Shown here in pieces: positions 12,343 to 64,000 of a stretch of DNA of 64,000 nucleotides. Both the position numbers and the translations under genes were made by a program. Source of the DNA: Isoetes taiwanensis (lineage: Eukaryota > Streptophyta > Lycopodiopsida > Isoetales > Isoetaceae); assembly GCA_021234155.1 (NCBI GenBank), contig JAJEKV010000061.1, positions 3,373,950-3,437,949 on the forward strand. Direction: 5' to 3'. A model generated the notes under the pieces. That model ran no database searches, was not told the DNA's origin, and saw nothing but the letters and a program-made list of their open reading frames with translations. Position 1 is the stretch's first letter. Each line of letters opens with the position of its first letter.

Positions 12343-12345
12343 CAG

Positions 12346-13651: not shown

Positions 13652-13663
13652 GCTCTGATACCA
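13652..13663 (-). other. primer-binding site for initiator tRNA-Met (copia)
   Basis: The minus strand reads TGGTATCAGAGC one base inside the 5' LTR, the standard plant initiator-methionine tRNA primer site. Confidence 0.93.
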
Positions 13664-13664
13664 A

Positions 13665-16914: not shown

Positions 16915-16955
16915 TCTTGGAGGTTCTACCGAGATCTTCCTGGATCTCAGAAGTC

Positions 16956-18293: not shown

Positions 18294-18324
18294 GAAAGGC
18301 CAAGATCTCGATGAAGTTGATTTT

Positions 18325-33339: not shown

Positions 33340-33352
33340 TTCTCCCCCCCTT
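33340..33352 (-). other. polypurine tract of element A
   Basis: The minus strand reads AAGGGGGGGAGAA directly before the 3' LTR. Element B has the similar AAGGTGGGGAGAA at the same place. Confidence 0.85.
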
Positions 33353-33980
33353 AGAAATAATGCTGTCCTCAGCATTGGGGTTAGTTAACCAGGGACAGTT
33401 AACCGAAGAAACTGAAATACGAGAAAGTATACTTAAGAAAGGAAGATAATTCCTTATTTTGGACAGTAGTACATTGAAGTTTGAAATATATCAGAGTTTA
33501 AGCACCAAGGTGCATTTCACAGAGTTATCATCAAAAAAAGTTTAAGGACCGAAGTCCAATTTGAAACATCACAGTGACAAAGAAAACAATGCATGTAGAC
33601 AAAATGAAACTGAAGAAGTTGGGCCATCAGCAACCCTCTATACATGGGCAGGTCACGAACTGCTTACTGGCCTGCACATGTCAATGTCAGTATATAATAA
33701 TAATATAAATAGATTGTGGTTGAAGGGACTACCCCCTATAATAAATAAAAGAAAACCCTATCTAGAAGGGAACCTATCATGTCTATGGTTTGCAATTCAT
33801 TGCGGCATAAGGAATGGTGAAGTTCCCATTATAGCCGAGATGAACGCGGCCTATGAACTATATGCTTTCCAAGCAATTCGTGGTCATGTCAACATCAACA
33901 ATACACCACGTCCTAGAGAACACAAAGGTGATCTCATCATCGGTAACCATTATTATTTACGATGCATCTACCCCTCTAGA

Positions 33981-35213: not shown

Positions 35214-35541
35214 TGTCCTTCTTCATAGAAGGCCGTAAATAACCGGAGCGGATCTTGAAATAGGTTTTCATGAAACCCCGCATGTCCCACTATAGGGTCA
35301 TTGTGTGTGTCATGCGTAATAAGCTTACGCATTACACCTAAAGTCTCGTGTACACACAACTTATCTTTGTGGTATAAGAAATTACCCTCTTTCTTATATG
35401 AATGGAAAGCTTCACGCTCCTTATCTGCGTGCCTCCTTAGCCGCACTATCCCACACATCTCTAACTCGATCCGTGGCTAAGGTCTCCGCTTTATCTATTT
35501 CCCAAACTCACCGTGAGCGTGGAAATTGCATTACAATGGGT
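35214..35541 (-). pseudogene. element A integrase zinc region, frameshifted
   Basis: The minus-strand stretch 35458-35198 encodes KEREAFHSYKKEGNFLYHKD and THNDPIVGHAGFHE, the region carrying the two zinc His residues in Ty3 integrase. The following FxxxYYWPxM and CxxC parts are scrambled by frameshifts. The same stretch is intact in element B (60870-61130). Confidence 0.65.
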
Positions 35542-36003
35542 TCACGCTACTGTGGGATGGCGTGACAACGCATCGGCAACCACATTGTGTTTCCCAGGCT
35601 TATACATAATCTCAAAATCATACTCCTCCAAAAATTCCATCCATCTTCTCTGACGGAGGTTGAGATTTGGCTGGGTCGATAGATAACGGAGACTCTGATG
35701 ATCCATATCAAGGTGGAATCTTCTACCAAGAAGGTAGTGTCTCCATATTCGCAAAGCGCGAACGACAACCAACAATTCCTGATCGTGGGTAGGGTAGCGC
35801 TGCTCTGTGTCATTCATCTTCTTAGAATCGTAGGCTATAACCCTTTCTTCTTGCATGAGAACTCCGCCGGTAGCAATCTTACTGGCATCTGTTGCTACTA
35901 TCTTGTCCTTTTCCGGATCCGGCAATGTGAGGACGGGTGCTGATGTCAAAGCATCCTTAAGTTTCTGAAAACTGTCCTGGACCTTTGCTTTCCAATGTTT
36001 CAT
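35542..36003 (-). pseudogene. element A RNase H
   Basis: The frame encodes the Ty3 RNase H. VATDASKIATGGVLMQ carries the first Asp, NDTEQRYPTHDQELLVVV the Glu, HLDMDHQSLRYL the second Asp and NVVADALSRH the last. It degrades the RNA strand during reverse transcription. It ends at a TAG at 35542-35544. A frame change separates it from the reverse transcriptase frame (overlap near 36000). Confidence 0.85.
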
Positions 36004-37120
36004 CCAATCCTTGACTTTCTCATGCTTCGTAAGGTCGGTAAGAGGTGCTGCAGTTTTTGCAAAATAACAAATTTTCGGTAATATCCTGCCAATCCCAAGA
36101 AACTTCGGACCTCTGACACATTACCAGGAATGGGCCAATCCTTAACTGCCTCTATTTTTGCTGGATCCGTAGCAATTCCTTCGGCCGAAATAACATGGCC
36201 TAAATAGTCCACCTTTGGGGTGGCAAACTTGCACTTAGAGAACTTGGCAAAGAGCTGGTGACGTCTTAACTTTTGTAGGGCCAAGCGAAGATGGTTCTCA
36301 TGCTCCTCCAGTGTCTTACTATAGATGAGAATGTCATCAAAGAAAATAACAACAAAATCATCTAAGTATTGGCGGAAGACATCATTCATTAACCGCATAA
36401 AAGTTGCGGGGGCATTAGTTAATCCAAAAGGCATAACGGTAAACTCATAGTGCCCATATCTAGTGCGAAAGGCAGATTTATGGATGTCCTCCTCTTTAAT
36501 TCTTATTAGATGATATCCGGAGCGTAAGTCAATCTTTGAAAAGTACACCGATAATCAATACACATCCTCAAGGAGCCATCCTTCTTCTTAACAAAAAGGA
36601 TAGGAGCGCCAAAAGGCGAAACACTAGGACGAATGAAACCTAGGTTTAATAACTCCTGAAGTTGCTTTTTAAGCTCTGCCAATTCAGGGGGACTCATACG
36701 GTACGGGGCCTTACTGGTAGGCTTAGTACCTGGTTCTAAAGCTATTTCACATTCTACCCCTCTAAAAGGAGGAAGTTTCTGGATCTCATCTGGAAAAAGA
36801 TCACTAAATTCTCGGAGAAGATTAGCAATGCCCTCTGGCAAGGTACCAATTACTTGCTTCTGTTTAGCATCTGACTCAATGGAGGCAAGTCTAATGACGC
36901 AAAGGAGCTCATCCTTGCGTACAGCTTTATCTAACTGTCTGATGGACATGGACTGCATAATGGGGTTTAAAGGATCACCTTTTATAGTTACGCGGGCTCC
37001 ATTAGCTTCGTTGAAGGTAACCTCTCGTTTCTCGCAATCTATATTGGCCTTTGCAGATGCCAAGAATTCCATACCAACAATCAGATCATATTTGCCAATA
37101 TCCATTAATTCGGCACCCAA
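36000..37120 (-). pseudogene. element A reverse transcriptase (two frames)
   Basis: The first frame (37120-36506) holds the protease end (LMDIGKYDLIVGMEFL), a linker and the reverse-transcriptase start ([36 protein letters not shown]). A deletion or frameshift near 36540 leads to the second frame (36548-36000) with [33 protein letters not shown] and the catalytic FDD ([13 protein letters not shown]), then [17 protein letters not shown]. The usual Y/F-x-D-D is present as FFDD. About 60 bp of the palm (the DELLDQL part) appears missing at the junction. Confidence 0.87.
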
Positions 37121-37447
37121 TGCAATCGGTGCACCGGCAAATGTGATTTTAAGGTTAATGCGACGGCCATGAGTATGTCCGATCTTACCACCGGGCTAAA
37201 GTGACAGCTTCTTTCCGGGACCTTAAAGTCTCAAGCCGCAATACCGGGCCATTCTAGGAGAAGCAAAATTATGTGTGTACCCGTATCCATCGTAATTATG
37301 AAAGGTTTGTCGCCTACTTGACCTATGGTGGAAATAATGGCAGTTGACTTTCAGCATTGCCGGTTTCAATGGTCGCAAGGATATGGGACTCACCGCGGAA
37401 TGTATTCGGGAGCCCCCTCCTCGACGGGTGGTGTAGACCGAGGTCAT
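37121..37447 (-). pseudogene. element A aspartic protease, degraded
   Basis: THNFASPRMARYCGL near 37230-37270 marks the protease just after its active site, and the start (DTGT-type) is changed to DGYGYTHNFAS in the visible frame. The element B counterpart reads LIDSGSTHNFASPRMVEML. The A copy is frameshifted around the active site. Confidence 0.6.
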
Positions 37448-38640
37448 CCCAATCGAGGCCGGCCATGGCCACTAGGGCAACAAGCGGACATAAGGACAAT
37501 TCTGCATGAAGTGCCCTGGACCGCATACACCTGTAGCATGCCTTATCTCTACGAGCCGTTCTCGGCCTCTTTGGGAATAGATCGTAAGGTTTCAACTTCC
37601 TTACCGACATTGTTCGGTTTATCGGGCATGCTGAATGTGACTTTCTTTTCCTGGCGGCCGTAAGAGTTCTGCTGAGAGGGCCCCGGACTTGGTGAACGAC
37701 CCTTATAAGGTGTGTATGGGCGTGGCTGGGAGTAAGATGCTAGACGTTGGTACTGGCTTCGCGGCGTGTCCTCTTCAAGGCTCAATGCCTTAGCCTCAGC
37801 CTCTGACTTCGGGTCTATGGCCTTAACCATTCGCTTAATTGATGGGGCCAACCCTTCAATATAGCCCTCCACCGCCCTCTTTTCATTCATACCCGGCACA
37901 TACAGCCTCAGGCGCATGAATTCATCTGTGTAGGCCTGGACTGACATACCCTTTTGCTCCAACCTGTAAAAAGTTTGAATCTGTTGGCATTTGTGCGCAC
38001 GAGGCATGTAATGCGACTTAAAAGCTTTGGCAAACTTCTTAAACTTGCATCTGCTCCTGTTTAGATGCTTAGCCCTTCCACCAAATATGAGCAGCCCCTG
38101 TAAGGTTTGTAGTGGCAACCTTTCCTGTATCTTTCTCCGTCATCCCATAGGATTTGCCAAACTCCTTCATCTCGTCCAACCAAGACTCTGCGTTCAGGCC
38201 GCCTCTAGGTTTCCCATCAAACTGAGCCAATTTTCTGTTCTTCCAAATACTAGTAATGGCGATATCAACGGTTTTACGGTACTCCTTGTCGTTGGCCTTT
38301 GGATGATCACCAGACGATATAGAGGACTCTGAAGACACAGAGGTGGCTGATTGGGAGGATGTGGCACTATCCGTGGACGGGCTTCGACGACGTTTGGAAC
38401 GGTGCCTCCTTTGTGCGGGTACTGCACCTGGTGCCGGTGCGGGGGTGGACTAGGTGGTAACGGAGGTAACTCCGGTCCGTCTTCCTGCATATGCTGTGGT
38501 GGATTGGCGTTTAGCACATAAGCCTGTAACTCGACTAATTGCCTCTTCATCAACATAAGTTCTTGCTCAGGTGTTAGTCTACTGGCATTCGAGGGTGTCT
38601 GCCAGGCGGCGTTACATGCACCGTCTATATTGACCATAAA
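37448..38640 (-). pseudogene. element A gag, frameshifted
   Basis: The start ATG at 38637 opens a frame with MVNIDGACNAAW, a Pro-rich stretch and then a frame change. The core (38338-38069) has AESWLDEMKEFGKSYGMTEK and AAHIWWKG. The next frame (38118-37549) has KKFAKAFKSHYMPR, MRLRLYVPGMNEKRAVEGYI and a Ser/Pro-rich tail. A CCHC knuckle starts (KACYRC) near 37545 but is broken. The core matches element B gag (58020-58400) motif by motif. Confidence 0.8.
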
Positions 38641-38888
38641 AAAATATAAGCAGAATTACAGTGACATCAAGTCTCACAAACAAGATCATTTCGGGTAGTA
38701 TTAAGAGAGAGTAATAAAGAGAGTACAAAAGAAAAGATCTTTATTATAAGTCAAAGCGATAGTTACATTGGCGGTCATTACATTGAAAGTAGTTTCAAAA
38801 ACTTAAAGTTATATAATACAGAGGTAGATATTATACATTGGGCAATTCTTAACTCACACACAAACATAGAAAGCTGCGGGGACCGGGC

Positions 38889-39377
38889 CTAGGGCTGCGC
38901 AAAAGGGTACAAGATAGAGTAGCGAACGCTCTCCCGCACAGCCCTGACTACCTTGTAGCGAGCCCAGGCCTGGATGATAACAGGCTGGTAGTCTAACGTG
39001 GGGCTAATGATAAGGAGATTAAAGAGCCTTCTTAGCGCATAGAAAATCTGCCACAAGTGATCGTTGGCGTCGGCAAAAGCTTCATGCCTTGTCATTTCCC
39101 AGTAATCCCATGTTCGACGAAGAGTTTGTTGTAAGTCCTCAAAGGCCCGTTCTCGGAGAATATTGACTACTTCCAAGCCTTTAGCTGAATCATAGGGCTC
39201 TCCTTCTTCTTCAGGTTCCCCTGCGTCGTAATCATCATCCCACTCCGGGTACTCCCCATACCGTTGGCCATAATCCTGGTCGGGAGGTCCTTGATCGTCC
39301 CGTCGTATGTTACTGGTGATTTCTTCCTCGATGTCTACGAGCTCATTGTCTGCAAGACGGCAAGAATGAATATGCAA
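38889..39377 (-). CDS. element A accessory ORF5, acidic, unrecognised
   Basis: A 162-codon minus-strand frame between the small ORF4 and gag. It has an acidic N-terminal half (DDQGPPDQDY, PEWDDDYDAGEPEEEGEPYD) and a helical C-terminal half rich in Arg and aromatic residues (LRRTWDYWEMTRHEAF, QAWARYKVVRAVRESV). I recognise no domain. It ends with the stop at 38889-38891, about 250 bases before gag. No clear counterpart is seen in element B. It could be the end of a longer accessory protein. Confidence 0.4.
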   Translation of the reverse strand: MHIHSCRLADNELVDIEEEITSNIRRDDQGPPDQDYGQRYGEYPEWDDDYDAGEPEEEGEPYDSAKGLEVVNILRERAFEDLQQTLRRTWDYWEMTRHEAFADANDHLWQIFYALRRLFNLLIISPTLDYQPVIIQAWARYKVVRAVRESVRYSILYPFAQP

Positions 39378-39567
39378 TATCGAACAATTCCCTATAGTTC
39401 AACTCTAAAGAAGAGAGATAAGCAGTGACGGAAAAAGACAATTCAATGGTTTTCAACAGTACAAGTAAACATAAGAAAATAGTATGTAGATTATATGATG
39501 GCCCATTAAAGGAAATGCCAATCAAAATTACATAAAACTGAATACAATTGTCTGATAAAATCTAGAA

Positions 39568-39759
39568 CTAAGAGGTCGACCCTTCAACATCTTGCGCTTG
39601 GGTATCAAACTCGTGCTCGGCCTGGTGTCGCGGCAAGTAATACACTAGGGTTAATTGAGGAGGCAAACATGAAGCTATCTCGGAGGAACATTTGTAGCTA
39701 ATGGTGCCGCAACCAGCAGACTCAAGTTCATCCAAGAGCCGATATCGCGGGTCAAACAC
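39568..39759 (-). CDS. element A small accessory ORF4, unrecognised
   Basis: A 63-codon minus-strand frame (FDPRYRLLDELESAG and onward). No domain is recognised. It lies in a stretch (39380-40126) that looks like decayed coding sequence, since neighbouring frames continue with stops. It may be one exon-like remnant of a longer accessory ORF. Confidence 0.25.
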   Translation of the reverse strand: MFDPRYRLLDELESAGCGTISYKCSSEIASCLPPQLTLVYYLPRHQAEHEFDTQAQDVEGSTS

Positions 39760-40126
39760 CGCAATGGCCGATCACGATTTACCGTGATGACCGCCTCGTG
39801 TTAGTGGGCAACTTCTTATGGCCTACCGTCACGAAAAGTGCCCTAAGTGCCCATACACCCGCCCGCTTCAGCAATTGCTTTGGCAAAGAAGAGGACTTGC
39901 CTACTTGTAAAACCGACAAGAAGAACCGGGTAATATGGCATTTCAAGCCCCTCAACAAATGGATGGGTTAAGGAAGCCAACTCGATTCAAAGTTCTACGG
40001 GCAGCCCTCTTCCTTAACAAAATCTTTGTCCTCCCCGAGCGCATCGGCCTTCATCACATAGATCCTCCATAGTTGGGTCGCCTTCCACCTTGACTACGAC
40101 ATCGCTGATATTGGGAACATGTGGGG

Positions 40127-40954
40127 TCAGAAGCGGGAAAGTCGACTTCGTGAATTGAGGATCGAGTACTCAATCATTAACTGCCATAACGATAATAGAG
40201 TGTTGATAGGCTCAACATCAAGAGGATGATAGTTGAGCAGTCGGTGTATCTCCGGCACGTAGACGGGTCGAGAATAATCGATGAAGTCATTTTGACCCTG
40301 ACAATACTCGGCCAACTCATAAAGGAGATGAGCCGTCTTTTGCTTGCCCTTATTAGCGATATGCTGGTATGCCCATTGAATATCGCTCAGTAACAAGTAA
40401 TCCTGATCCCCAACCTTTATAGTAGGAAGCGAACCCAAGCCGACAAGTGCTTGGCCCTTACTACGAGGTAAAGGCTTCTCTGCGGCCAATTTCTTCCATC
40501 TTACAAAGTCGGCATAGCTTATCTGTTCATCCTCTTCAGGATCTGGGGGAAGTGGAGCCTTGGCTTGCTCCAGGGCCGTGTCGGTACTATCAATATACCT
40601 ATCCATGATAAGGGCAAGGGCAAACTGGGCCTCAAAGTATAGCTGATTAGAGCCGAGGTCAAGAATGGGGGCGTGCTTAGCACGTCTGACAATGCCCCTA
40701 AGAATGGCATCGCCGTGACGGTCATCCCCAAACATCTGCCATAAAATATCCTTGTGGAGATAGGGTTGAGGCGGTTCGCCCAAAAGTTCTGCCTGCGATA
40801 ATATTTCCTCGTTGTAAAACTCAAGGAAGGCATCATAATGAGGGTGTGCCCGCATGTTGTCGACAAGATCAACCTTGCACTGCAGGAGGGGGTCTAGAAG
40901 AGGGTAGGGGATCCCACTGCTCGCCTCCCATGTACCAGGCAAAACGTCCTTCAT
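40127..40954 (-). CDS. element A accessory ORF3, shared with element B
   Basis: The frame is open from 41107, but the likely start is ATG 40954 (MKDVLPGTWEASSG), giving about 275 residues. The protein looks globular and acidic, with a proline-rich acidic bend (PLPPDPEEDEQISYADFV) and a distinctive VGDQDYLLLSDIQ block near residue 190, followed by HLLYELAEYCQGQNDFIDYS. Element B encodes NGQEYLLLSDIQ and YLLWQQPDLDDFIDRE at the matching place after its H3-like gene. I know no family for it. On the minus strand a TATTTAAA string at about 41035 and a CT-rich leader precede the ATG, suggesting its own promoter. It is uninterrupted, unlike gag-pol. Confidence 0.6.
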   Translation of the reverse strand: MKDVLPGTWEASSGIPYPLLDPLLQCKVDLVDNMRAHPHYDAFLEFYNEEILSQAELLGEPPQPYLHKDILWQMFGDDRHGDAILRGIVRRAKHAPILDLGSNQLYFEAQFALALIMDRYIDSTDTALEQAKAPLPPDPEEDEQISYADFVRWKKLAAEKPLPRSKGQALVGLGSLPTIKVGDQDYLLLSDIQWAYQHIANKGKQKTAHLLYELAEYCQGQNDFIDYSRPVYVPEIHRLLNYHPLDVEPINTLLSLWQLMIEYSILNSRSRLSRF

Positions 40955-41245
40955 AATCCATGAGAAGGAAGAGGCGAAGAAGGAGGAGCGAAAACGAGAA
41001 GGATGACTGAAGAGAATGACAAACCCTAAGTGAATGTGACTTTTTAAATATTCAGGCACGGAGTTCGAAGCGCCAGCTAATTTTTTTTTTTTTTTTTTCA
41101 TTACCATTATTATGATTATTATTGTGTCCCATTCGGAACCTTAGATAACAATCACAAGAAAAGAGATTTGATTATTACACTATGAAGGGAAAACTTGAAC
41201 TTAATTATATATTGATATACAAAAAAAAAGTACAACTTAACACTC

Positions 41246-41725
41246 TCACGGCCGTTCCCCATGGATCCGGCGTGCTAACTGTAGATCCTTCGTCATTATG
41301 GTGACACGTTTAGCATGAATGGCACATAAATTGGCGTCCCCAAAGAGGGCCACCAGATAAGCTTCGGCCGCTTCCTGAAGCGCGAGGATTGCATGCACTT
41401 GAAACCGTAAATCGGTCTTATATTCTTGGGCAATTTCCCGGACAAGGCATTGGAAAGGAAGTTTGCGTAGCAGAAATTCAGTGGACTTCTGGTACTTCCG
41501 ATGATTTCCGCAATGCCACCGCACGGTTTTGTGCCGCCGATGCTTTCTCTTTGGTTGACACCACCCCGAAGTTCGGGGGCTCCCGGGAATAGTTTTCCCC
41601 GCTTTGGCGAAAAGATCTTTGGAGTGCCGGGCCTTTTCGGATGATTTCATCCCGCTGATTGTCCCTCTATTAACTTTGGTGACTCCACCAACTTCATTGT
41701 CTGTTGTTTTCTTGAGTTGATCCAC
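41246..41725 (-). CDS. element A histone H3-like protein
   Basis: A 159-codon frame (first codon GTG; no ATG start is obvious). Residues about 76-159 are an almost canonical H3 histone fold: [17 protein letters not shown] (alpha-N and alpha-1), [29 protein letters not shown] (alpha-2), [13 protein letters not shown] and [13 protein letters not shown] (alpha-3 and C-terminus). By eye about four of five positions match plant H3. The N-terminal 75 residues follow the H3 tail in spacing ([25 protein letters not shown]) but are strongly diverged. A VALRK string just before the fold appears only in another frame, so a small frameshift lies near 41490. There are no introns. It sits between ORF1 and ORF3, in the same register as ORF1 and its coiled coil. 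In the cell H3 pairs with H4 in the nucleosome; whether this protein did is unknown. Confidence 0.88.
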
Positions 41726-41799
41726 TGCAAAATGTTATGGCCGACTTACGGGACCGTGATATATTTATGATGTTTTCAATATGGAAAAAAAAAAATATG

Positions 41800-42046
41800 A
41801 TTACTTGGAGATGGCGTGTCTTGACGGGTCCCACTTCTCGCTCTTGTTTCCTAAGCCGCCTCTTAAATGAAAAAATGCCTCGGTTGCTTCTCTGGCTATC
41901 CGCTCCGCTTCATCTTGCATTCTTTTCCGAGCTTGCTCCTGTTCCACTTGCTGTGCATGGAGGGTATCTTCACGGAGCTTAGCAGCCTCCTCTGCCAAGT
42001 GAGTTGCCCTCTATGACTGTGCCTGGAGTGTTGCCTGCTCCTCTGC
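41800..42046 (-). pseudogene. element A coiled-coil segment between ORF1 and the H3-like ORF
   Basis: In register with ORF1, separated from it by a stop at 42047-42049 and another near 42013, this stretch reads THLAEEAAKLREDTLHAQQV and EQEQARKRMQDEAERIAREA, a long charged heptad-like helix. It ends with a stop at about 41801. Element B has a similar charged coiled coil upstream of its H3 fold within one frame, which suggests that A once had a continuous ORF1-coil-H3 frame. Confidence 0.5.
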
Positions 42047-42691
42047 TCATTTTTCCCTGGCTATCCGGACGTCTGTTCTGCGTTTAAGCTCCAAGAAATA
42101 CCGTGGGGGATTGGCCTGCATGTCCTGCTCGACAGCCCGCTGGAACTGATCGGTGAAAAATGGGGGTGTTCCGGCTTCCCAAATGATTCGATTAGTTTCC
42201 TCCTTATACGAAAAAGATGGGATGGTGTAGGATCCACCATTAAAGAGACACATCCCATTACCAAGATAACGGTACTCTAAAGCTTGCGCAGCAGGGTCAT
42301 CAGCTGCAATCCATCGTCGGTCAGCTTCTTGCGCCATTTGAAGGATCTTATGGGCCTGCATCTGTATGGCCTCGGCTTCAGCCTGCTCATCCCCTTCTGG
42401 TGGATAAAACCGTGTGTAGTTCTGGACGCCATCTTGCTCTTCAATTACGGTGTAGGATTCCCGGATGGCGTTAAGCTTATATACGAAGCGCTCATTATAG
42501 CAGAAGAGCGGGTATGGTATCCTAACCCCTTCATAAAAACGTTTAACAAAATGTTCCAATAACTCCTCAGTTTTGGCTTCCTCTTCTGCCGATAGGTTTG
42601 GGCGTGGCAAAAGTTCGGCCATCAGAGAAGTTATGGGGGATCTAGAATAGCGAGGCATGCGCTTGTATACTTGCTTGGGTTCCTCCATCAT
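42047..42691 (-). CDS. element A accessory ORF1, unrecognised
   Basis: Starting at ATG 42691 (MMEEPKQVYKRMPRYSR), the frame gives 214 residues. It could start further upstream at a non-ATG codon. The protein is mixed helical/beta, with YPLFCYNERFVYKLNAIRES, an acidic PEGDEQAEAEAIQ helix and PPFFTDQFQRAVEQDMQANP. I recognise no family. It is the first gene after the 5' LTR and leads in the same register into a charged coiled coil and the H3-like ORF. The upstream leader (42700-43280) holds a near-duplicated GC-rich segment and a T-run. Confidence 0.5.
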   Translation of the reverse strand: MMEEPKQVYKRMPRYSRSPITSLMAELLPRPNLSAEEEAKTEELLEHFVKRFYEGVRIPYPLFCYNERFVYKLNAIRESYTVIEEQDGVQNYTRFYPPEGDEQAEAEAIQMQAHKILQMAQEADRRWIAADDPAAQALEYRYLGNGMCLFNGGSYTIPSFSYKEETNRIIWEAGTPPFFTDQFQRAVEQDMQANPPRYFLELKRRTDVRIAREK

Positions 42692-42899
42692 GGAAGGGTG
42701 GGCGCTGAGTGGCCGCTTAGGGTAGGTAGACGAGGAACGAGGTCGCAAGCAGAAAGGGCTATGGCGGAAGAGAGCTTCAGATCCGGCGGCTATGGCGGCT
42801 AGGCGGAGCACAAGGGAGCAACAAGCGTTAAGAGAATAAAGGAGAAATATTACCCTTAACTTAAATTTAAATTTTTAACCTAAAAAATAAAAACTGGCG

Positions 42900-43115
42900 G
42901 AATGGCATTTTTAGGGCTGCGGGCAGGCCCTATCCCGACTTCACTTCGGCCGCCAGAGGAGCGTCCGGTACCCCCGCTCGCGATTAGGGTTAGGTTTTTT
43001 TTTTTTTTTTTTTTTTTTTCCAGATTAGGGCTGCGGGCAGGCCCTACCCTGACCTCGCCACTGTCGCCAGCAACACCTGAGTACCCCCTGCCCGCCAATT
43101 AGGGTTAGGGTTTCG
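42900..43115. repeat. duplicated GC-rich leader segment with T-run in element A
   Basis: A segment with AGGGCTGCGGGCAGGCCCTA occurs twice (about 42914 and 43028), each followed by a CC(C/T)GAC(T/C)TC string and TTAGGGTTAGG. The copies are separated by a run of about 25 T. The core is nearly palindromic (AGGGC...GCCCT) and could fold. Confidence 0.7.
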
Positions 43116-43281
43116 CGCCGGGTACACATCCCAAAATTATACTTGACCCACATTAAATTAATCATGATAACATCTACTATACTGCCCAAATCTCAAGCTA
43201 CTCCAAAAATCCACAAACACCAACTAGCGATCTAACGAGTTAGCATGTGGCCGGTGCAGTAGTTTGATTTCCCAAAACCAT

Positions 43282-43293
43282 GCTCTGATACCA
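43282..43293 (-). other. primer-binding site for initiator tRNA-Met (element A)
   Basis: The minus strand reads TGGTATCAGAGC one base inside the 5' LTR. Confidence 0.93.
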
Positions 43294-43294
43294 C

Positions 43295-44837
43295 TGTGAC
43301 GCTCCCTGAATATATACGACACCCGGCCGTATACATACGGGGACTTTCCCCTCCCATGGCAACCATCTCGCCATGAGCAGGGCCCTCCGTCTATCCCGGG
43401 CCATCTATAGATAGATGCCCGAGTGAAGGACACAGAGGGGTCATTCGGCCCACGCCTTCAATGGGACTCCTAAGTCGCGGAAGCGTGAATACATGTTAGC
43501 ACACAGCATAAATCATATACAAATAACCACCACGAAGGGTGGCACATCCATCCAAGTACTAACAGCAAAGAATATACATTAAATACTAGAGAAAACACCC
43601 CAAAACCCATGGTTCTGCCCCGGCTCAGACTCCAGTGAGGATCGACTGACGGCTAGGCCTCAAGAGATCAGCAGACCGAATCTTGACATGGCGTTGGCTG
43701 GCATAGAATATCGGCTAGGGTTGTCCACTCCATCCGCCCCTCCTGTGCACACTTTGCAGATGGGTCGATTCATGCTATGGCATCACTATAGCCTTCCGGA
43801 GACGCAGACTCAAGGCATCACCCTTCGAGCCTGCTCCAGGGTTCATGAAGCCCTAGTCCGACGAGGCAGGTCAGGGAAGTGTCCCCTTCCAGGATCGCAG
43901 TGGTTCCATGGGTGAGCTAGAGAATACGTGCCGCATCAGCGACCCCCGCATCCGTACCCGACTTACTCACCCTAAATCTACTCAAAGTGCAGGATGCCCC
44001 ATATGGGTCACACCTCTGCACCCAGGGAGTGTCAGACCCATACCCGGCCCTCTACGTGACCGGCTATCAGGCCTAGCCCACTGTAGGAGTCTCAGGAGCC
44101 TTTTATGTTCGTGCAAGACCCCACCCCCACTTCACCACTGCGTCCCTTCTCTAGTGCTAAGCCATTCCATAGCATCTACGACCCGGTGGTCTCCTGTACA
44201 CAGGCCGCACTAATGGGAAATACAGGGATATCTACCTAGGAGCATACTACTAAACATGGCTCAGAGGTCTCTACCCCCCCTTAATTCCCCCATTCCAAGA
44301 GTAATACTATGCAAAGAACTATCAATCCATCCTTTAAGAGCAAGAACAGAATCAAAGATAAAGAGTACTCACCTTTGCAATCAAGGGTTAGTTCCTACAG
44401 GTAAAGCACAGAGAGAACAGAAGAAATGAACACAACAAGTGCCCAACAGGGGCGCTACTCTAGAAACATCAAGCTATACTAACCACCCACCTGAGTTCCT
44501 GCTAGATCCATTATCGTTCGGTAACTCCATCTTCCCTGGACTTGGGCGCTCAGCTGGGTCGAATTGGTGGTACATGGGATAGGGGTCAAGTTAGATGACC
44601 CAAATTAGCATCCCCATGCTGGCCAATCGAAGTCAGCCAGGTGGCGCCTTCCTAAATATTTAATTAGCTTAATTAAGTTAATTGGACAATTATCCTTTAA
44701 TGATTAATTTAGCATAGCTAAATTAATCCTTTTGAGGTCACCCCCCCTTAGGTTAAAATACCCCATGGTGGCGTACCTTTACTAGTGACGTGTCAGTATA
44801 TTTATATGTATCCCGTATAAGTACATGGAACGTCACA
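43295..44837 (-). repeat. 5' LTR of element A
   Basis: 1,543 bp, TGTGACG...CGTCACA. It lacks a segment present in the 3' LTR (near 44550 here), otherwise nearly the same. A 75-codon plus-strand open stretch (43688-43915, and 32119-32346 in the other LTR) is antisense to the element and not a gene. Confidence 0.93.
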
Positions 44838-45686
44838 CTAGCCAACCCTCTTTAATGCACTATTAAATTCGGCCTGTGTACAAGAACCACACCTGGTTGT
44901 GGGTGAAGGGGCCAGACTGGCTTACAAGGAGGTTCATGTCCTGACTCGTAATCATGTCCCTCTGGTAGTAAAGCCTATCGGGGACTATTGTGGACTAGAC
45001 CTAATGCTCTGCCACTGCGTGCGGGCTTTGCATGGGTTCGACACTCTTGGGGTGGTGCACACCTTCCATGGAGTTCAGTCGAGTACGGGCAGTGACCCTC
45101 TAGTCACCTTGAGTCAGCATGCCAACCTCTGGTGGGAGCAATCCCTACCTGCCCCATCGGAACTGGGGAGATGAAACCCAGGAATAGCCCCTCTGGCTAT
45201 GCATCCGGCGGGCTGCAGTCAAGTCCCAACACTTTTCAACCTACTCTGCAAAGTGTGCACAGGAGGGGCGGATGGAGTGGACTACCCCAAGCCATGTTCT
45301 TATGCCAGCCAAATCCATTTGCCATGAATTCTGTCTGCAATGACCTCTGGAGTCCCAAGCCGTCAGTCATCCCCTTTGAGTCTGAGCCTTGGGTAGGATC
45401 TCCATATGTGATGTGCTGATCTCTGTCTATACAGATATGTGGGGAGCCATCCTTCGTGATGGTCATATGATGTTGATGTATTTGTGCTTACATGTATGTT
45501 TACGCTTCCGCAGCTAGGTAGACCCTAAAGGGAGACAGGGTAAAATGACCCCTTCATTCTTCCCACTGGAACTCATCAAGGTTGCAGTGACACGTGGAGG
45601 ACCCTGTATTAGCATGGAGCTGGTATGGGGGATGAACTCCTGTTTGTATACGGTGAGAGCACCGTATACGAGTAGGGGACGTCACA
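44838..45686 (+). repeat. element B 5' LTR, right half
   Basis: Resumes with the second copy of CTAGC and ends GGGGACGTCACA. Together with 31000-31722 it gives about 1.57 kb, the same size as the LTRs of element A. The segment near 45245-45330 (GTGCACAGGAGGGGCGGATG) matches the element A LTR in reverse complement. Confidence 0.88.
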
Positions 45687-45687: not shown

Positions 45688-45699
45688 TGGTATCAGAGC
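45688..45699 (+). other. primer-binding site for initiator tRNA-Met (element B)
   Basis: TGGTATCAGAGC lies one base inside the B 5' LTR. This proves the LTR boundary and the plus orientation of B. Confidence 0.93.
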
Positions 45700-45898: not shown

Positions 45899-47130
45899 AT
45901 GTCTCACGTTATGCGCCAGAGCACAAACCTACAGGGTATTTTTTAGTGGCCCCGGCGGGCCAGTTGGCCACACATTCATATTTTTTCAGAAATAGTTGGC
46001 TACGCCAGAGTAGGATACGTTCATGCCCTGACCGAAGGGTAGTGGCCATTTCAAAACACGAGTTTGTACATTTTACTCATTTAGTAGCCAATTCGATATT
46101 TACTAAATTCGGCTAGGCGCAGGGTGTGGCCAATTCGACTTTTTGTACGTGGGAAAAAACTTATCGAGGTAGCCAATTAGAACCTAAGGTAAATTTTAAT
46201 GGGTAAGGGGGTGGCCATATTACATCTCGACTATATATCCATCTAAGAATCGTCACTTATAGTCCTCTAGGATTAGGGTTTCATATATATTTTTTAATTT
46301 GACCGAGCTGGCATCAGAAACTGCCCTTTCATACAGGTTTAATTTATTCTACCCTGTCGAGCCTGTGTTTTTTCTGTATGCATTTGTTTCATTGTTCATG
46401 TGAATATAAATATAAATGGGATGTTAGTCTCTGAATATGAATGGGATAATAATTTTAATATTATATTTTATTGTCATTTGCAGAGCACTCCCGATTTGTA
46501 TCCACGATTTGGTTGAGATGGAGATTCATCTCCACCTACAATCTAAGCTTTAGATTCATCAATTCAGGCTAGTTTTTACCCTATTCAGTTGTGCAAAATT
46601 ATTCAGATGTGCAGAAGTAGTTGTTGATGCCAATCATCAAATTTATGCAGCATGGAGGGAGCTTCACAAAAGAGAATAAATGAGTTCTTGGGCCAAAGCG
46701 GCGCATCACTATATCATCGTCTACGTCCACTTTCATAGGCCAAATTTAGGGTCTTGATGAAGGCTATGAATTTGCAGATGATAAGGACTATGATCCAAAG
46801 CAATTTGAATGTATTATTTGGGGAAGATGCCTAGGTGGTTGTGGCCAACGTCGAGTTTTCACTACCAAAGCATGTTCTTATCTTAACCAACACAAATTTG
46901 CTCGTAGCCAATTTGTTAATGTAGCAAAATAAAAATATCATAGTTGCGCCAGTTCAGTTACGCCATCTTAGAAAGAAGGTGCAAAATATTGCGAGGCCAA
47001 ACTACGCCAAGTTATTTATTCTACATGGCCAGTAGCCAGTTGTTTCTGGCCCTATAAAAATATAGGGCGCTTAAAAAATACCCTGCAAACCTAAATCTTA
47101 GGTTAAACCCTGGGCGCACACCGTGAGTCA
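45899..47130 (+). repeat. hairpin repeat 1 of element B, split by a hAT-like element
   Basis: The left arm (TCTCACGTTATGCGCCAG, from about 45901) and the right arm (CTGGGCGCACACCGTGAGTC, ending near 47129) are inverted repeats. They are now over 1.1 kb apart because the element at 45932-47085 landed in the loop. Three intact copies of the hairpin lie downstream. Confidence 0.75.
45932..47085. mobile_element. non-autonomous hAT-like element, 1,154 bp
   Basis: The ends are CAGGGTATTTTTTA and its reverse complement TAAAAAATACCCTG. They are flanked by the 8-bp duplication CAAACCTA (45924-45931 and 47086-47093). CAGGG ends with 8-bp duplications are the hAT signature. The interior has a short stretch (about 46650-46930) encoding MEGASQKRINEFLG and, in another frame, CLGGCGQRRVFTTKACSYLN followed by QH. 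That spacing resembles a BED-type zinc finger, so it may be the remnant first exon of a transposase. Confidence 0.85.
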
Positions 47131-47272
47131 CTGGCCGTAATCACCTTGAAACATGATGAATTTTAACAAGATAATATGATAGATCGAGTTTTAAGGTAAG
47201 AATTAGTTAGATTTGTATGTCACACCCCTAGGAATATGCCTAGAAATCATATAATTTAGTAAAAAATGCCAA

Positions 47273-47341
47273 ATGTCTCACGGTATGCGCTAGAGCCTTG
47301 ATCTAAATATTAGTTCGGGCTCCCAGCGCACATCATGAGTC
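47273..47341 (+). repeat. hairpin repeat 2 of element B
   Basis: Left arm TGTCTCACGGTATGCGC and right arm CCCAGCGCACATCATGAGT can pair over about 15 positions with few mismatches, with a loop of about 25 bases. It lies 100 bases upstream of the TATA box of the H3-like gene. Confidence 0.8.
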
Positions 47342-47443
47342 AAATGGTTTAGAAAACTCTGAAGTAAGCATATGTTTTAGGTTAATAGGTGCTTTGACAC
47401 ATGAAAAAGGGTAACTTAGAATTTGACTTTAAATTACCCAAAC

Positions 47444-47451
47444 TATAAATA
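47444..47451 (+). promoter_or_regulatory. TATA box of the element B H3-like gene
   Basis: TATAAATA, 109 bases before the ATG at 47560, is followed by a C/T-rich initiator-like stretch. The same TATAAATAG-plus-pyrimidine arrangement recurs before the next accessory ORF at 49430. This supports separate transcription from the LTR transcript. Confidence 0.6.
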
Positions 47452-47542
47452 GACCTAAACCCTCCCTCCCCCTCATTTGTAGACTTCCTGTTTAGAAAAT
47501 TGCTCCGCTTTTTGAGGCAATTTTTGGGCGCCCGACCTTCGA

Positions 47543-47556
47543 TTGACGTGACGTAA
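47543..47556 (+). promoter_or_regulatory. TGACGTGACGT motif in the H3-like gene leader
   Basis: Two overlapping TGACG motifs sit immediately before the start codon. Paired TGACG motifs are as-1-type sites for plant TGA/bZIP factors. The location downstream of the TATA box is unusual, so it may be chance. Confidence 0.3.
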
Positions 47557-47559
47557 GAC

Positions 47560-48824
47560 ATGGCGCGCACCAAACAGACCGCTCGGGTTCCTCGACGAGG
47601 TGAAACAGCCAGCGCCCAAGTGCAGCAGATGCTTCGGGAGGGACTTCTCGCAGGAGGAGGCCAGTCTTCATCAGGCGGGGAGACCACTTCGGAAGAGCGG
47701 CACGAGCAGGGATCCGAGCAGGGATCACAAGAGAAGCTGGCCGACATCATCGACCAGGAGTTAGAGGTGCAGTCAGAGGGCTCGACAGAAGTACTCGAGG
47801 AAATCGAAGAGGACGACGAAATCCAGAGAGTGGTCGAGCAGATGGACAAGGAGAAACAGGAAAGGGCAGAGCAGGAGCGGGAGGCTAAAGCACAGGAGGA
47901 GCAGAGGGAGCCCACTCCCGAGCCAACAGTGGAGGAAGAGCTCGAGGCCTGGATCAGGATGCACGAGGCGAAGGAACGACGCCGCGAGAGGAAGGCCGAG
48001 AAGAAGAGGAAAAGGGAAGAGGCAAAGCAGGCTGAAGCCAAGAAGAAGCTCAAGGGCAAACACGTGGAGGAGCCCAAGAGGAAGACGAAGAAGACGCCTC
48101 GGACCAAGATCGTCATCGAGGAATGGCCAGCCGACCAGCCCGTCTCCTCCGATGATTCAGTGATGAGGATTTTAATCCTAACCTAGAAGGAGGGAGCTCC
48201 TCTAAGCCCCCAGATGAGGAGTGGATAGACCAGGAGCAGGCAGAGCAGGACCAACAGGTACAGGTGCCTCCGCCCTACCCGACTTGGGAGAAGGACAAGG
48301 ACCCGAAGAAGCTGCCCCGGCCCGCACGAGAATCATACGTGGTAGACCACATCAGGGTCTACCAGAAGAAGTTAAAAGCACACCAAGAGTATATGAAGAA
48401 GTGGGAGGCCTACAACTCCTACTATCAGGCGAACAAGGTAACCTTTGTCGCAGGTGGAAGGCCATCAAAAAAGCAGACTCTTAAGCCGCCTCCTAAGAAG
48501 CCCATTCCCCCGAAGAAGCCAGTGAAAAGGAAAGCCAATTCGAAGCTGAATCGAGCAATCCGGGAGATCCGACACTTCCAGAGAAGCTATGGCTTCCTAA
48601 TACCCCGTGCACCGTTCGCCAGGCTGGTGAAGGAAGTTGTGCAAGAGTTCGACACCGGCATGAGGGTAACAGGCGAGATGCTGCTAGCTTTGCAAGAAGC
48701 AGCGGAGCAGAAGCTAGTGCAACATTTTCAAGATTCTACAGCATGCACGGTACACGCCAAGAGGGTGACCTTAATGAAGAAGGACATGCACCTAGCCAGT
48801 CACATTAAAGGGGAACCTCATTAA
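47560..48824 (+). CDS. element B histone H3-like fusion protein (one frameshift)
   Basis: The first frame (47560-48186) begins MARTKQTAR, identical to the first nine residues of histone H3 including K4, then leaves H3 (VPRRGETAS). It continues as a Gly/Ser-rich stretch and a long Glu/Lys/Arg coiled coil (VVEQMDKEKQERAEQERE, HEAKERRRERKAEKKRKR) with Lys-rich, nuclear-localisation-like runs. A one-base frameshift near 48165 shifts to the second frame, which passes an acidic stretch and PPPYPTW. It reaches a Lys/Pro-rich linker (PPPKKPIPPKKPVKRKAN) and then an H3 histone fold from about 48555: [62 protein letters not shown], to the stop at 48822-48824. About half of the fold positions match canonical H3, ungapped. 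The region is clearly more GC-rich than its flanks. No intron is seen. It sits between the 5' LTR and gag, as in element A. Confidence 0.9.
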
Positions 48825-48963
48825 TTTTGTAAATAACAAATTTTGTGAATACAAAGTGTTTTGATGTAAATTATGAGTGCATAATTGTTGTTAATTAGGT
48901 TGAATTAGCAATAATTGCCTTTTGTTTTAGTCAAATTGGACATTTTAAGGTCAATTAATGAGA

Positions 48964-49032
48964 AATGTCTCACGGTATGCGCCAGGACCCAAAACTAAAC
49001 TTTGGTTTGGCCTCCCAGCGCACACCATGAGT
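48964..49032 (+). repeat. hairpin repeat 3 of element B
   Basis: TGTCTCACGGTATGCGCCAG and CCCAGCGCACACCATGAGTC pair over about 17 positions. It lies 140 bases after the stop codon of the H3-like gene. Confidence 0.85.
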
Positions 49033-49167
49033 CTTTCACACCCAAACTAGTCCCAAACATCTCCAAATCGGCCAAGTAAGGGGTCAATCTTGCATATCTC
49101 GGTGAGATCATCATATTTTTACCCTTACTTCATCTTGTTTAGATAAGTTTTGACCAATTAGGGCCAA

Positions 49168-49235
49168 ATGTCTCACGGTATGCGCCAGGACCCCAACCTA
49201 AACTTTAGGGTGAGCCCCCAGCGCACACCGTGAGT
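49168..49235 (+). repeat. hairpin repeat 4 of element B
   Basis: TGTCTCACGGTATGCGCCAG and CCCAGCGCACACCGTGAGTC pair almost perfectly around a loop of about 30 bases. Together with repeat 3 it precedes the promoter of the next accessory ORF. Confidence 0.85.
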
Positions 49236-49429
49236 CCTTTCACCATTTTCTCTAGCATGCCACCCCCAATTGACCTCAAGTTTGTTGCAATAGGTTCATT
49301 AGATAGTCCTATTCATGCTCAAACCCTTAAATTAGCTTTTCAATTCCCATTTTGACCTCCAAATAGGTGAGATTTGCCCAACCCCAAGATTTTTCCAAGT
49401 CATCCAAAAATTAGGGTTTTCCCCTTGTC

Positions 49430-49769: not shown

Positions 49770-50124
49770 ATGGTCTTGACCGCTAATAGGACCAAGTATT
49801 ATCACAAGCCTAGCCCCCATCATCATCAACGGCCAGGAGTACCTGCTCCTAAGTGACATCCAGAACCTCCCCGAATGCAGAGCCAGGGAGTATCAACTTG
49901 ATGAGTTGTTGTATCTTCTGTGGCAGCAACCAGACCTAGATGACTTCATCGACCGGGAGGCTTCCGACTTCCCAATCCAGGTGAGAGAAGCCGACATCTA
50001 CACCGGGGGTTCGACTTCCGATATCCAGGCGTACAGCAGCATCCGGCAAATGATGGAAGCTCGGGATCTGCCGTCTGAAGAAGAATTATACGCCATCCAA
50101 GAACGGAGACCACAAACATTTTGA
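49770..50124 (+). pseudogene. element B accessory ORF3-like, degraded
   Basis: An open stretch reading NGQEYLLLSDIQNLPECRAR, then DELLYLLWQQPDLDDFIDRE, to the stop at 50122-50124. The YLLLSDIQ and DFID blocks match accessory ORF3 of element A at the same relative place, after the H3-like gene. Upstream sequence (49560-49770) has matching-looking pieces in other frames broken by stops (for example NIAKYLTNKAARLPDYM), so the N-terminal half is decayed. No known family is recognised. Confidence 0.55.
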
Positions 50125-50274
50125 TGCCGAGTTCTTCGACACCAGCTCCCCCAGAGAGAAGAGGTGAAATCGACCTGAGGTGAATCACATCGACAGTCAG
50201 GGACTTTGGAGACCTCACAGAGATTGACGTCGACGAATATGCGGCAAGACATAGAGCCGGCATCTGACCTGACG

Positions 50275-50696
50275 ACGAATCAACAGCAGCAGGCAGGGAC
50301 AGGTCGCTAAGGTACTATCTTCCTCTACTGATGGATGGAAGGATAGCAGTCATACACTGCAAGTTCAGCCCAAGGGGCGAGGAAGGAGTGTTCATGCTCA
50401 TCGCACTCTCAGGCTTTGGTAGGCATGCTCGACTGCTCCCAACAGTTGACCATGTCATCCTAGTCAAGAGAACGATGGCACTTGACATCTTCGACTTCGC
50501 CATACCCTATCGACGGCAGGGAAGACTAGCAGTGACCGCGGCCTACACTTCCGACCGCAGGGTAGAAGACTTGGTGCAAGCCTTGCAGGGCGGGTCGTCA
50601 ACGAACATCCTCAGGAACTTGGGACGCTCGGTAGGAACGGCCCAAGTTAAGAAGTTTCTTCAGGATAACCCATCCTACCGGCGATTCCAAGAATAG
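50275..50696 (+). CDS. element B accessory ORF4, unrecognised
   Basis: The frame reads from at least 50305 (RSLRYYLPLLMDGRIAVIHC) through ATG 50331 to the stop at 50694-50696, giving 121 residues from the ATG. It has a hydrophobic GVFMLIALSGFGRHARLLP segment and a basic C-terminal half (IPYRRQGRLAVTAAYTSDRR, VKKFLQDNPSYRRFQE). I recognise no family. It may be the C-terminal part of the same ancestral protein as the ORF3-like block. An AATAAA at 50723-50728 shortly after the stop could be its polyadenylation signal. Confidence 0.4.
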
Positions 50697-58838: not shown

Positions 58839-58856
58839 GGTGAGTGTCACATTTTT

Positions 58857-59600
58857 GCTGTCATAGATTCAGAACAAGCAGAAAATCAGTATCAGGTGAT
58901 CTCTACAATAGGGAAGGCCAAGACCAAGTCTTTTATAGTCCTGATAGATTCGGGAAGCACCCACAACTTTGCGTCCCCAAGAATGGTTGAGATGTTGAAG
59001 CTCAAGCCATTGAAGTCAAAGCCGAGACCCGTTGTGTTAGCAAGCGGAGCAGTGAGACACACGGCAGGCAAGAGGATAAACTTTGACATCGACTTGCCAG
59101 GAATCAACATTCAAATGGGGGCAGAAGTCATGAGCATCGGGAAGTATGATTTGATCATAGGAATGGAGTATCTTGGACCAACAAGAGCCATCATTGATTG
59201 TGGGAAGCGGAAGGTGACCCTCATGGCGCCCAACGGCAAAATCATAGAAATTACATGTAAGGAAGTTGTTCCAATCATGCAGTGTATGTTTAGTAAGCGG
59301 CTGCTCAAGTGCATAAAGAGCGAGCAGATAGCCTACATCTTCAAGCTTCAGATCGAAGAGCCTGAGTCAGAAGAAAGCAAGGAAGATAAGGTGCTTAGCA
59401 AGTTGCCAAGGCAGATAGCTAAGTTGATCAAGGAGTTCCATGATCTCTTTCCAGACGAGATCAAGCAGCTTCCTCCTTACAGGGGAGTCGAGTGTGAGAT
59501 AGCACTCAACCAGGCAGTCTGGCCGACGAGCAAGGCTCGCATTGTGATGACGACGCAAGAGCTGACCGAATTGAAGAAGCAATTGCGGGGAGTTGCTTGA
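58857..59600 (+). pseudogene. element B protease and start of reverse transcriptase
   Basis: The frame has the protease active site VLIDSGSTHNFASPRM and the flap/end region GKYDLIIGMEYL. A linker (LPRQIAKLIKEFHDLFPDE) and the reverse-transcriptase entry RGVECEIALNQAVWPTSKA follow, ending at a TGA at 59598-59600. Catalytic D-S-G is intact. The next frame continues the polymerase without loss. Confidence 0.85.
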
Positions 59601-60403
59601 CCTAGGGTTCATTAGACCTAGCGCCTCACCATTTGGAGCACCCATTCTTTTTGTGAAGAAGAAGGATGGCGACTTGAGGATATGCATAGATTACGTGCGG
59701 TTGAACAAGCACACCATCAAGAATAAGTATGCACTCCCAGTTGGGCGACTGATGGATCAGCTCCAAGGGGCTAAGGTTTTCCAAGATAGACCCGAGGTCG
59801 AGGTACCATCGATCGATCAAGGAAGAAGACGCCCACAAAACAAAGATTCGTGACTGTACGGGCATTACGAAGTTCACAAGAATGCCATTTGGTTTGTCAA
59901 ATGCCCCAAAGAACGCTCATGAGGCTTATGAACCACATCTTCGTGGAGTTTTGGATACTTTTGTGATAGTATTATTTGATGATATTCCGTGTACAAAGAA
60001 ATCCGGAAGAACACGCATAACACCTAAGGAAAGTGCTAGAGAAGCTAAGAAGGCACCCGCTTGTTCAAGTGCCACTTCGCAATGTAGAGAGTAGAGTACC
60101 GGGTCATGTGATCTCAAAGAGAGGGATTTCGACGATGTCGCCAAGATTGAAGCAAATATACGCTTGGCCGGCCGCCAAGAACATCCACGAGGTCGGCTTT
60201 CTTTGGCCTAGCGGTGGTACAACAGAAGTTCGTGAAGAACTTTGCAAAAAAATAGCGCCCCCACGACCCATTTGACGAGGGCTTTAAAAGTGAAGGATTG
60301 GGCGCACCATTGGCGTAAGAAAGCCCAAACGGATTCGAGATGTTAAAGGAAGCTTTGACAACCGCCTCGCCTTAACCCCGCCGCACCCGAGAAGGACAAG
60401 CTT
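59593..60403 (+). pseudogene. element B reverse transcriptase, frameshifted
   Basis: [20 protein letters not shown] and [20 protein letters not shown] start the palm. Frame changes near 59790 and 59870 follow. MPFGLSNAPKNAHEAY and FVIVLFDDIPC carry the catalytic DD (LFDD), and HVISKRGISTMSPRLKQI belongs to the thumb in another frame. At least four frame changes make it inactive. The segment 59780-60400 is the most damaged part of the element. Confidence 0.8.
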
Positions 60404-61147
60404 GTGGCGACAGATGCAAGTAAGATTGCCACAGGTGCAGTGCTCATGCAGGAAGAGCGGGTAGTAGCCTATGACTCCCGAAAGATGAACGACGCCGAGA
60501 CGCGCTACCCGACCCATGATCAGGAGTTGTTAGCCATTGTCAGGGCACTAAGGATTTGGAGGCATTATTTGCTGGGGAGGAAGTTTCAGTTAGATACTGA
60601 TCACCTGAGCCTTCAATATCTTTTCACCCAACCACTCCTCAACCTAAGGCAAAGGAGGTGGATGGAATTCCTTGAGGAATATGATTTTGACATAGTGTAT
60701 AAGCCCGGCAAGCTTAATGTTGTTGCAGATGCCCTTTCTAGGAGACCATTCGGGACGAGAACGCATTGTAATGCTATATCAACTCTTTCGAGTGAGTTTG
60801 GTAAGAAAATTGAGGAGACATTGCCGTTGGATGGTGATTTCAAGGAAGTATGGGCAAGCCTCACTAAGGAGGCTAGAACAGATAAGGAACGGGAAGCCTT
60901 CAAACATTATAGGAAGGAAGGCAACCTGTTGTACCATAAAGATAAGTTGTGTGTGCCCGAATCATCAGGTGTAAGGAAGTTGATTCTCCACGACACCCAC
61001 AACAGTCCAATAGCCGGCCACGCAGGATTTATGAAGACATATTTCAAAGTGCGCAGCAGCTATTATTGGCCAGGGATGAAGAAGCAGATAGCCCGCTACA
61101 TCAAAGAATGTCAGCTGTGTCAGCAGACGAAGGCAGTGCAGCTTTGA
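60404..61147 (+). pseudogene. element B RNase H and integrase zinc region
   Basis: A clean 247-codon frame. RNase H: MATDASKIATGAVLMQ, RYPTHDQELLAIVRALR, FQLDTDHLSLQYL and NVVADALSRRP with all catalytic acids. The integrase N-terminal zinc region follows (ILHDTHNSPIAGHAGFMKTY, YYWPGMKKQIARYIKEC, QLCQQTK), giving H-H-C-C. It ends at a TGA at 61145-61147, and the core continues after a frame change. Confidence 0.88.
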
Positions 61148-61159
61148 ATTCCAGGGGCA

Positions 61160-63995: not shown

Positions 63996-64000
63996 CCCTA

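Follow-up and report, generated by a model that had tools for sequence, protein, structure and literature searches.

A selected histone H3-type gene carried by nested Ty3 retrotransposons in the genome of Isoetes taiwanensis

We analysed a stretch of 64,000 nucleotides from the Isoetes taiwanensis genome (assembly GCA_021234155.1, contig JAJEKV010000061.1, positions 3,373,950 to 3,437,949 of the forward strand), which is referred to below as the window. It holds two full-length Ty3 long terminal repeat (LTR) retrotransposons, each with both LTRs and 5-bp target site duplications (TSDs). One of them, element A, is nested inside the 5' LTR of the other, element B. In each element a histone H3-related gene sits between the primer binding site and gag, and both elements have genes that are interrupted at some points. 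The features of the two elements, in window coordinates, are as follows.

31000-31722, plus strand: first piece of the element B 5' LTR, 97.2% (466 bp) and 89.9% (276 bp) identical to the 3' LTR in L088; one copy of the element B TSD, ATACT, lies directly before it, and it ends with one copy (5 bases) of the element A TSD
31723-44837, minus strand: element A, a full-length Ty3 element with CTAGC on both sides; its LTRs (31723-33339 and 43295-44837) are 95.3% (1267 bp) and 97.2% (282 bp) identical
34032-38284, minus strand: element A gag and pol
41249-41554, minus strand: element A H3 fold, type A, 75.5% identical to the type A fold query, with no stop and with a match to H3
42050-42691, minus strand: element A N-terminal domain of the H3 gene (type A), running to a stop; its likeness to the N-domain of L043 and L044 was judged by eye
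43282-43293, minus strand: element A primer binding site, Met-type
44843-45686, plus strand: second piece of the element B 5' LTR, 95.4% identical over 844 bp to the 3' LTR
45688-45699, plus strand: element B primer binding site, TGGTATCAGAGC, presumably of the initiator tRNA-Met type
47560-48183, plus strand: element B H3 gene, 5' part, with MARTKQTAR, V as residue 9 and then a charged coil; no Pfam hit
48156-48821, plus strand: element B H3 gene, 3' part, in another frame, with a PPPYPTW linker containing a long predicted helix, a Lys/Pro stretch and the H3 fold
49780-50121 and 50268-50693, plus strand: pieces of element B open reading frame (ORF) X between the H3 gene and gag, with relatives in L040 and L042
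57933-58676, plus strand: element B gag (Pfam Retrotrans_gag and Ty3_capsid), matching that of element A
58839-62295, plus strand: element B pol pieces, comprising the protease/reverse transcriptase (RT) region, RNase H, the integrase zinc domain and the integrase C-terminus with a chromodomain
63136-64000, plus strand: element B 3' LTR, which runs to about 65290 and is followed, beyond the window, by the second copy of the TSD ATACT

The H3 gene of element B begins with an ATG at 47560 followed by ARTKQTAR, the exact H3 start that the original prediction had described. The H3 fold at 48555-48815 was also as predicted, ungapped and about half identical to H3 (51.7% over 87 residues). It matched Pfam Histone at 2.5e-26, and its best matches in the PDB were H3.2 and H3.3 (4e-25). 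The single protein that had been proposed, with a coil and a Lys/Pro linker between tail and fold, stood only in part. The charged middle and the linker are present, but one open frame is not. The frame with the tail and coil stops at 48184-48186, and the remainder is open from 48156 to 48821 in the other frame, which places the frame break within 48156-48183. In the type B copies read, only residues 1-8 or 1-9 of the canonical H3 tail are kept, and the tail through residue 36 is not. The proposed position between a 5' LTR with a tRNA-Met site and the gag of a chromovirus held, with gag about 9 kb downstream of the H3 gene, except that element A splits the 5' LTR into two pieces. The H3-related fold of element A (41249-41554), which occupies the same relative place as in element B, had been overlooked. 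The observation of tail and fold together exceeds chance. A tblastn search of phages gave no match.

The gene recurs across the genome, an assembly of 1,110 contigs and 1,658,258,908 bases. At least 150 matches to the 219-residue 3' part were found, at 69-100% identity, the window copy included. Canonical H3 recovered 15 host H3 genes at 98-99% identity and then at least 135 further matches at 72-86%, many of which lie in open frames of 400-567 residues. The primer site was located 674-761 bp before the gene start in five of six stretches of 9.9 kb (L039-L043; the gene starts in L042 and L043 were worked out from several readings), and the sixth, L044, had no primer site in range. No long open frame intervenes between the primer site and the H3 gene in the copies read. 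The element's own gag-pol follows in four of the six stretches (L040, L042, L043 and L044).

The spacing between the H3 gene and gag was examined with two independent lists, the best 150 H3-gene matches and the best 150 gag matches. For 38 of the 150 listed gag matches, a listed H3 match lay upstream on the same strand within 40 kb, and 26 of these 38 pairs were spaced 3,370-3,700 bp apart. Against these 38, two pairs had the H3 match on the wrong side of gag and none had it on the opposite strand. A sample drawn from the gag list (the first 12 every-eighth rows, numbered by hand) contained four rows already in the pairing table; a fold match was present at the expected place upstream in six of the other eight, several with stops. 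Other element copies thus carry the H3 gene at a fixed place relative to gag, a check that the original prediction had itself put forward. A host H3 or CENH3 gene or pseudogene lying by chance between retrotransposons would also have an H3-type tail and fold. However, the location of the gene within elements that are bounded by TSDs and its recurrence at fixed spacing to gag rule this explanation out and leave it a negligible probability.

Selection on the gene was estimated by NG86 on the copies as they stand, with the nonsynonymous to synonymous ratio (dN/dS) taken as a ratio of sums; pairs with dS outside 0.05-1.5, saturated pairs and gapped folds were excluded. The fold dN/dS was 0.023 for type A, the type of element A (15 rows, one of them the fragment L050; 77 of 105 pairs), 0.086 for type B, the type of element B (37 rows, 236 of 666 pairs), and 0.011 for host H3 (15 genes, 34 of 105 pairs). 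Divided by part, type A gave 0.075 for the N-domain, 0.25 for the coil, 0.27 for the linker and 0.016 for the fold (seven open frames). The type B values were 0.24 for the first 60 residues, 0.17 for the middle, 0.147 for the linker and 0.063 for the fold (eight open frames). In both types, then, constraint on the gene is strongest in the fold. Between L043 and L044, the fold had no residue differences at a dS of 0.65, and the value for gag-protease was 0.084. Differences at the first, second and third codon positions were 0.094/0.051/0.358 in type A and 0.18/0.095/0.444 in type B. In six type B copies picked by the tail only, a set free of protein-similarity bias for the fold, they were 0.232/0.111/0.541. 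A dN/dS below 1 had been named as a check, and the fold values are far below it. These results demonstrate purifying selection on the H3 gene across the element group. Because it recurs at a fixed place and has a low dN/dS, the H3 gene is an element gene under selection and not a chance insertion. A large and old clade of Ty3 elements in this genome carries it as a regular accessory gene.

The tail peptide was kept as well. ARTKQTAR is encoded exactly at 1,934 places in the genome, host H3 genes included, and the reversed pattern at none; with one mismatch allowed there were 2,667 places, and 11 for the control. Among 100 listed sites, at least two of which are host genes, we counted 54 spellings, and the degenerate positions differed in 58% of pairwise comparisons. 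Of 20 sampled tail sites, every one had an ATG in front and 15 had a fold match downstream. We also examined 30 type B copies chosen by the fold and not by the tail (seven top hits, 20 by rank and three for long open frames). The tail was recognisable in 24 of them, exact with ATG in 14 and with one to four changes in 10. Residue 9 is V in the branch of the window copy, and from residue 10 onward no match to H3 was seen in the copies read.

The two gene types differ in what precedes the fold. In type B, the MARTKQTAR start and the charged coil are followed by the PPPYPTW linker, and the fold is diverged. The first residues of type A are MANTKS, MAITKS or MAPTKS in five of the six full starts seen and MANTMS in the sixth; next comes a new domain some 200 residues long, and then a coil and a linker lead to a fold that stays close to that of H3. 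The ARTKQTAR tail is not present as such in the type A copies read; the MA.TKS start of most type A genes may be a worn MARTKQ. The type A N-domain had no Pfam match outside the histone part and only weak matches in the PDB (E 0.011 to 0.5), and a structure predicted from one sequence was unusable (pLDDT 42.6). Gene types beyond A and B exist. One branch (L050 and L059) has MARTKQTARIHPVV, then a stop and mere traces of a fold, and another (L058 and L064) has MARTKQTARKYNERPTLS, with the end of the fold more H3-like in L058.

The origin of the gene was examined by phylogeny and by loop length. Type A formed a clade (99/93) that grouped with the Isoetes host H3 gene L009 (91/88). Type B formed one clade on a long branch (100/99), whose place was unresolved in the larger tree. 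A single clade of A and B was neither rejected (p-AU 0.068) nor shown. In searches of the protein database, the fold matched 12 and 107 H3- or CENH3-like proteins. A query of tail plus coil, which is of low complexity, matched no database protein at E<=0.001, and the tail-coil-fold architecture was found in none of 20 proteins examined among the 119 fold matches. Two candidates for the host CENH3 gene turned out to be type A copies, and a host CENH3 gene was not separable from the element copies.

Type B could derive from CENH3 or imitate it and so steer the element to centromeric chromatin. The top four matches of type B are plant proteins at 46-60% identity, three of them named CENH3 or HTR12, and a reduced tree placed B and CENH3 on one side of a branch (96/90). 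However, loop 1 has 17 residues in type B, as in H3 (34 of 37 rows, with three not parsed), against 18 in plant CENH3-like proteins (7/7), and the type B tail reads ARTKQ as in H3, whereas several CENH3s have ARTKH. The unresolved place in the larger tree and the even spread of repeats in I. taiwanensis reported in the accessible text of PMC8566536 also speak against it. We therefore consider a centromeric mimic very unlikely, and the membership of type B in CENH3, suggested by best hits and the reduced tree, is opposed by the loop length. We lean towards H3 as the source of both types, by one or two captures, with a CENH3-like gene as the less likely ancestor of type B. The original claim that an H3 gene was captured with both tail and fold kept is supported for type B; type A kept the fold and has another N-terminal domain.

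Beyond the position of the gene and the selection on it, which are observed, we propose a mechanism to which we give slightly better than even chances. The product would be a chimeric histone H3, able to pair with host H4 and to become part of chromatin, with an N-terminal module made by the element (the exact H3 tail 1-8 plus the charged coil in type B, the new domain in type A) fused to the H3 fold. After pairing of the fold with host H4, H3.3-type chaperones would take it up, and it would be built into nucleosomes or tetrasomes, either on the element itself or at its target. The deposited tail could bear the active K4 mark, without H3-like sequence past residue 9, and/or the module of the element could be held on chromatin. 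As an outcome, the element might escape silencing or tether its integration complex.

Several observations weigh against this proposal. Type B has P in place of R63 in 34 of 37 rows, mostly D, N or S in place of K79, and retains R129 in one of 37, so that a type B nucleosome may be unstable or may not form. Residue 9 is K in 1,064 of the 1,934 tails. Type A lacks the ARTKQTAR tail, which means that the tail is not needed in all lineages. The uncorrected pN/pS over all pairs was 0.108 (0.080-0.138) for A and 0.159 (0.125-0.206) for B, and the dN/dS estimates come from copies picked by protein similarity, which biases dN down, with saturated pairs left out. Between L040 and L042, the fold value (0.128) exceeded that of gag (0.062), and the fold is less constrained there. 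L039 and L041 had no gag-pol of their own in range, the sole RT match of L041 being on the opposite strand and side. Two of the eight further elements picked by gag had no H3 in the fetched stretch (L092 and L097), and in L092 the gene zone lay outside that stretch.

Single copies are also often decayed. The window copy of the B gene is broken, and a stop was present in about 67 of the 150 listed 219-residue matches, counted by eye. The original prediction had suggested looking for an open frame kept from tail to fold across copies; such a frame was found in three of the 30 type B copies, two of which had been picked for long frames and one of which has no ATG. These stops and broken frames are what would be expected of a passive passenger: an H3 retrocopy that the element picked up and multiplied along with itself but that has no function, like the fungal hAT cases discussed below. 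This explanation is disfavoured by the selection tests. The fold dN/dS was 0.016-0.09 at a median dS of 0.67-1.16, the differences in type B were concentrated at the third codon position, and the tail peptide was kept while synonymous sites varied; we consider a passenger extremely unlikely. Decay together with low dN/dS fits an old element family with selection on active lineages.

The altered residues also bear on a soluble mimic or decoy, in which tail and/or fold would titrate H3K4 readers, demethylases, ASF1- or CAF-1-type chaperones or methyltransferases outside nucleosomes. H3K4 readers contact tail residues 1-8, and residues 1-8 are kept while position 9 and later sites change. The ATG-Ala start would expose an N-terminal Ala, and type B has lost R63, a DNA-contact residue of H3. 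On the other hand, the fold is the most constrained part in both types and the tail is gone in type A, so a tail decoy alone leaves the fold unexplained. We regard a decoy as unlikely. The basic Lys/Pro linker, the long predicted helix and the location of the gene beside gag would suit a particle or nucleic-acid protein, in which the coil would oligomerise and the fold with the basic linker would package genomic RNA or cDNA inside virus-like particles or the pre-integration complex. This leaves the H3 tail 1-8 and the kept interface residues unexplained, and we find it quite improbable.

The remaining genes of the elements follow the Ty3 order of gag, protease, RT, RNase H and integrase (the protease was identified by Pfam in L044 and by similarity in the window). 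A chromodomain (PF00385, 8.3e-10) was found at the integrase C-terminus of element B and was not listed for the tested piece of element A. By eye, the element B domain (61522-62295) lacks the first and last cage aromatics, which makes it type II by the definition in the accessible text of PMC6317226. Without these aromatics its ligand is probably not H3K9me. This apparent type II character, together with the many tails that have a residue other than K at position 9, weakens the idea that the chromodomain reads the K9 of the element itself.

ORF X lies between the H3 gene and gag in both types (49780-50693 in the window, 5909-7323 in L040 and 5098-7139 in L043). The similarity between A and B is weak (31% over 58 aa), and the relatives in L040 and L043 matched no Pfam family above the cutoff. 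A paired inverted motif, GTCTCACGGTATGCGC ... GCGCACACCGTGAGAC, occurs at 45901-49236 with seven matches at up to three mismatches (chance mean 0.13); it flanks the H3 gene on both sides at corresponding places in L039-L041 and was not found in L042-L044. About 584 bp of the element B 3' LTR (63136-65290) are absent from its 5' LTR. Elsewhere in the window, a Ty1/copia-like element (by eye) with 97.5% identical LTRs lies at 8651-14379 on the minus strand. A further LTR element at 14999-25626 has 1.9-kb LTRs, 95.3% identical, around pieces that look by eye like Ty3 pol. Pieces at 2-610 and 3657-4307 resemble, by eye, what we take to be KRI1-type and acireductone dioxygenase-type host genes.

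Parts of this arrangement have counterparts in known systems. The influenza NS1 histone mimic is likewise a short H3-tail-like peptide in the protein of a parasite, limited to a few residues and without a histone fold. Plant CENH3 shares with type B the MARTK start, a variable tail, the H3 fold and motifs such as REIRHFQ and VTLMKKD; it differs in that the loop length of type B is that of H3. Ogre/Tat-type Ty3 elements are similar in having an extra ORF, which lies upstream of gag. To our knowledge, these ORFs are not histones. Most OTA elements have eORFs according to the accessible text of PMC6317226. Chromoviruses have the same gag-pol, RT, integrase, chromodomain, LTRs and primer site, but the available portions of PMC3350952 and PMC6317226 describe no histone gene in them, whereas the Isoetes elements have the H3 gene and ORF X before gag.

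Capture and spread of H3 by a transposable element was described for fungal hAT transposons of Dothideomycetes, in tens or hundreds of copies (PMC6710886, accessible text). In six Mycosphaerellaceae genomes, all H3 copies except the original were inactivated by RIP, while in Pyrenophora tritici-repentis many copies are putatively functional, 12 of them identical, which was read as recent (PMC6710886, same portion). These are DNA transposons, whereas the Isoetes elements are LTR elements with gag-pol in a plant, with diverged families under strong selection, and the accessible part of PMC6710886 describes no new N-terminal module. Single H3 genes are also known in DNA viruses such as xenomavirus, DSLPV1, sylvanvirus and others, and are held to be recent in origin; as in Isoetes, a selfish genome encodes an H3-like protein, which is thought to work with host histones (PMC9145170, accessible text). 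Some of these viral H3s have longer N-terminal tails, and the alpha-2 chaperone site is altered to TAIL in two of them (same portion of PMC9145170) and to FAIL in 13 of 15 type A rows. The viral H3s in that portion are single genes, whereas those of Isoetes form a retrotransposon gene family in which the fold is preceded by a coil or a new domain.

Captured H3 in transposons is thus already known, as are single viral H3s. In the literature searched (titles and the starts of abstracts, with most subscription papers outside reach), we found no LTR retrotransposon with a histone, in agreement with the original statement that none with such a layout was known to its author. The word 'histone' occurs 0 times in the main text of a 2026 review of gene capture in plants and 0 times in the I. 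sinensis genome paper. We believe that there is no precedent for an LTR retrotransposon that has rebuilt a core histone and maintained it under selection.

Transposon silencing rests largely on marks written on histone H3. We see an even chance that this clade evolved its own H3 variants, which would add a K4-bearing tail or a new domain to host nucleosomes, so that a parasite would have been writing its own chromatin state in thousands of copies over a long time. If so, a retrotransposon-borne H3 would be a direct molecular move in the silencing conflict. The elements, one branch of which keeps the tail no further than the K4 epitope and whose fold is more constrained than the rest of the gene, would also offer a natural experiment on which H3 residues matter, and the host could draw new histone variants from them. 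The selection on the H3 gene of these elements hints at parasites supplying their own chromatin protein.
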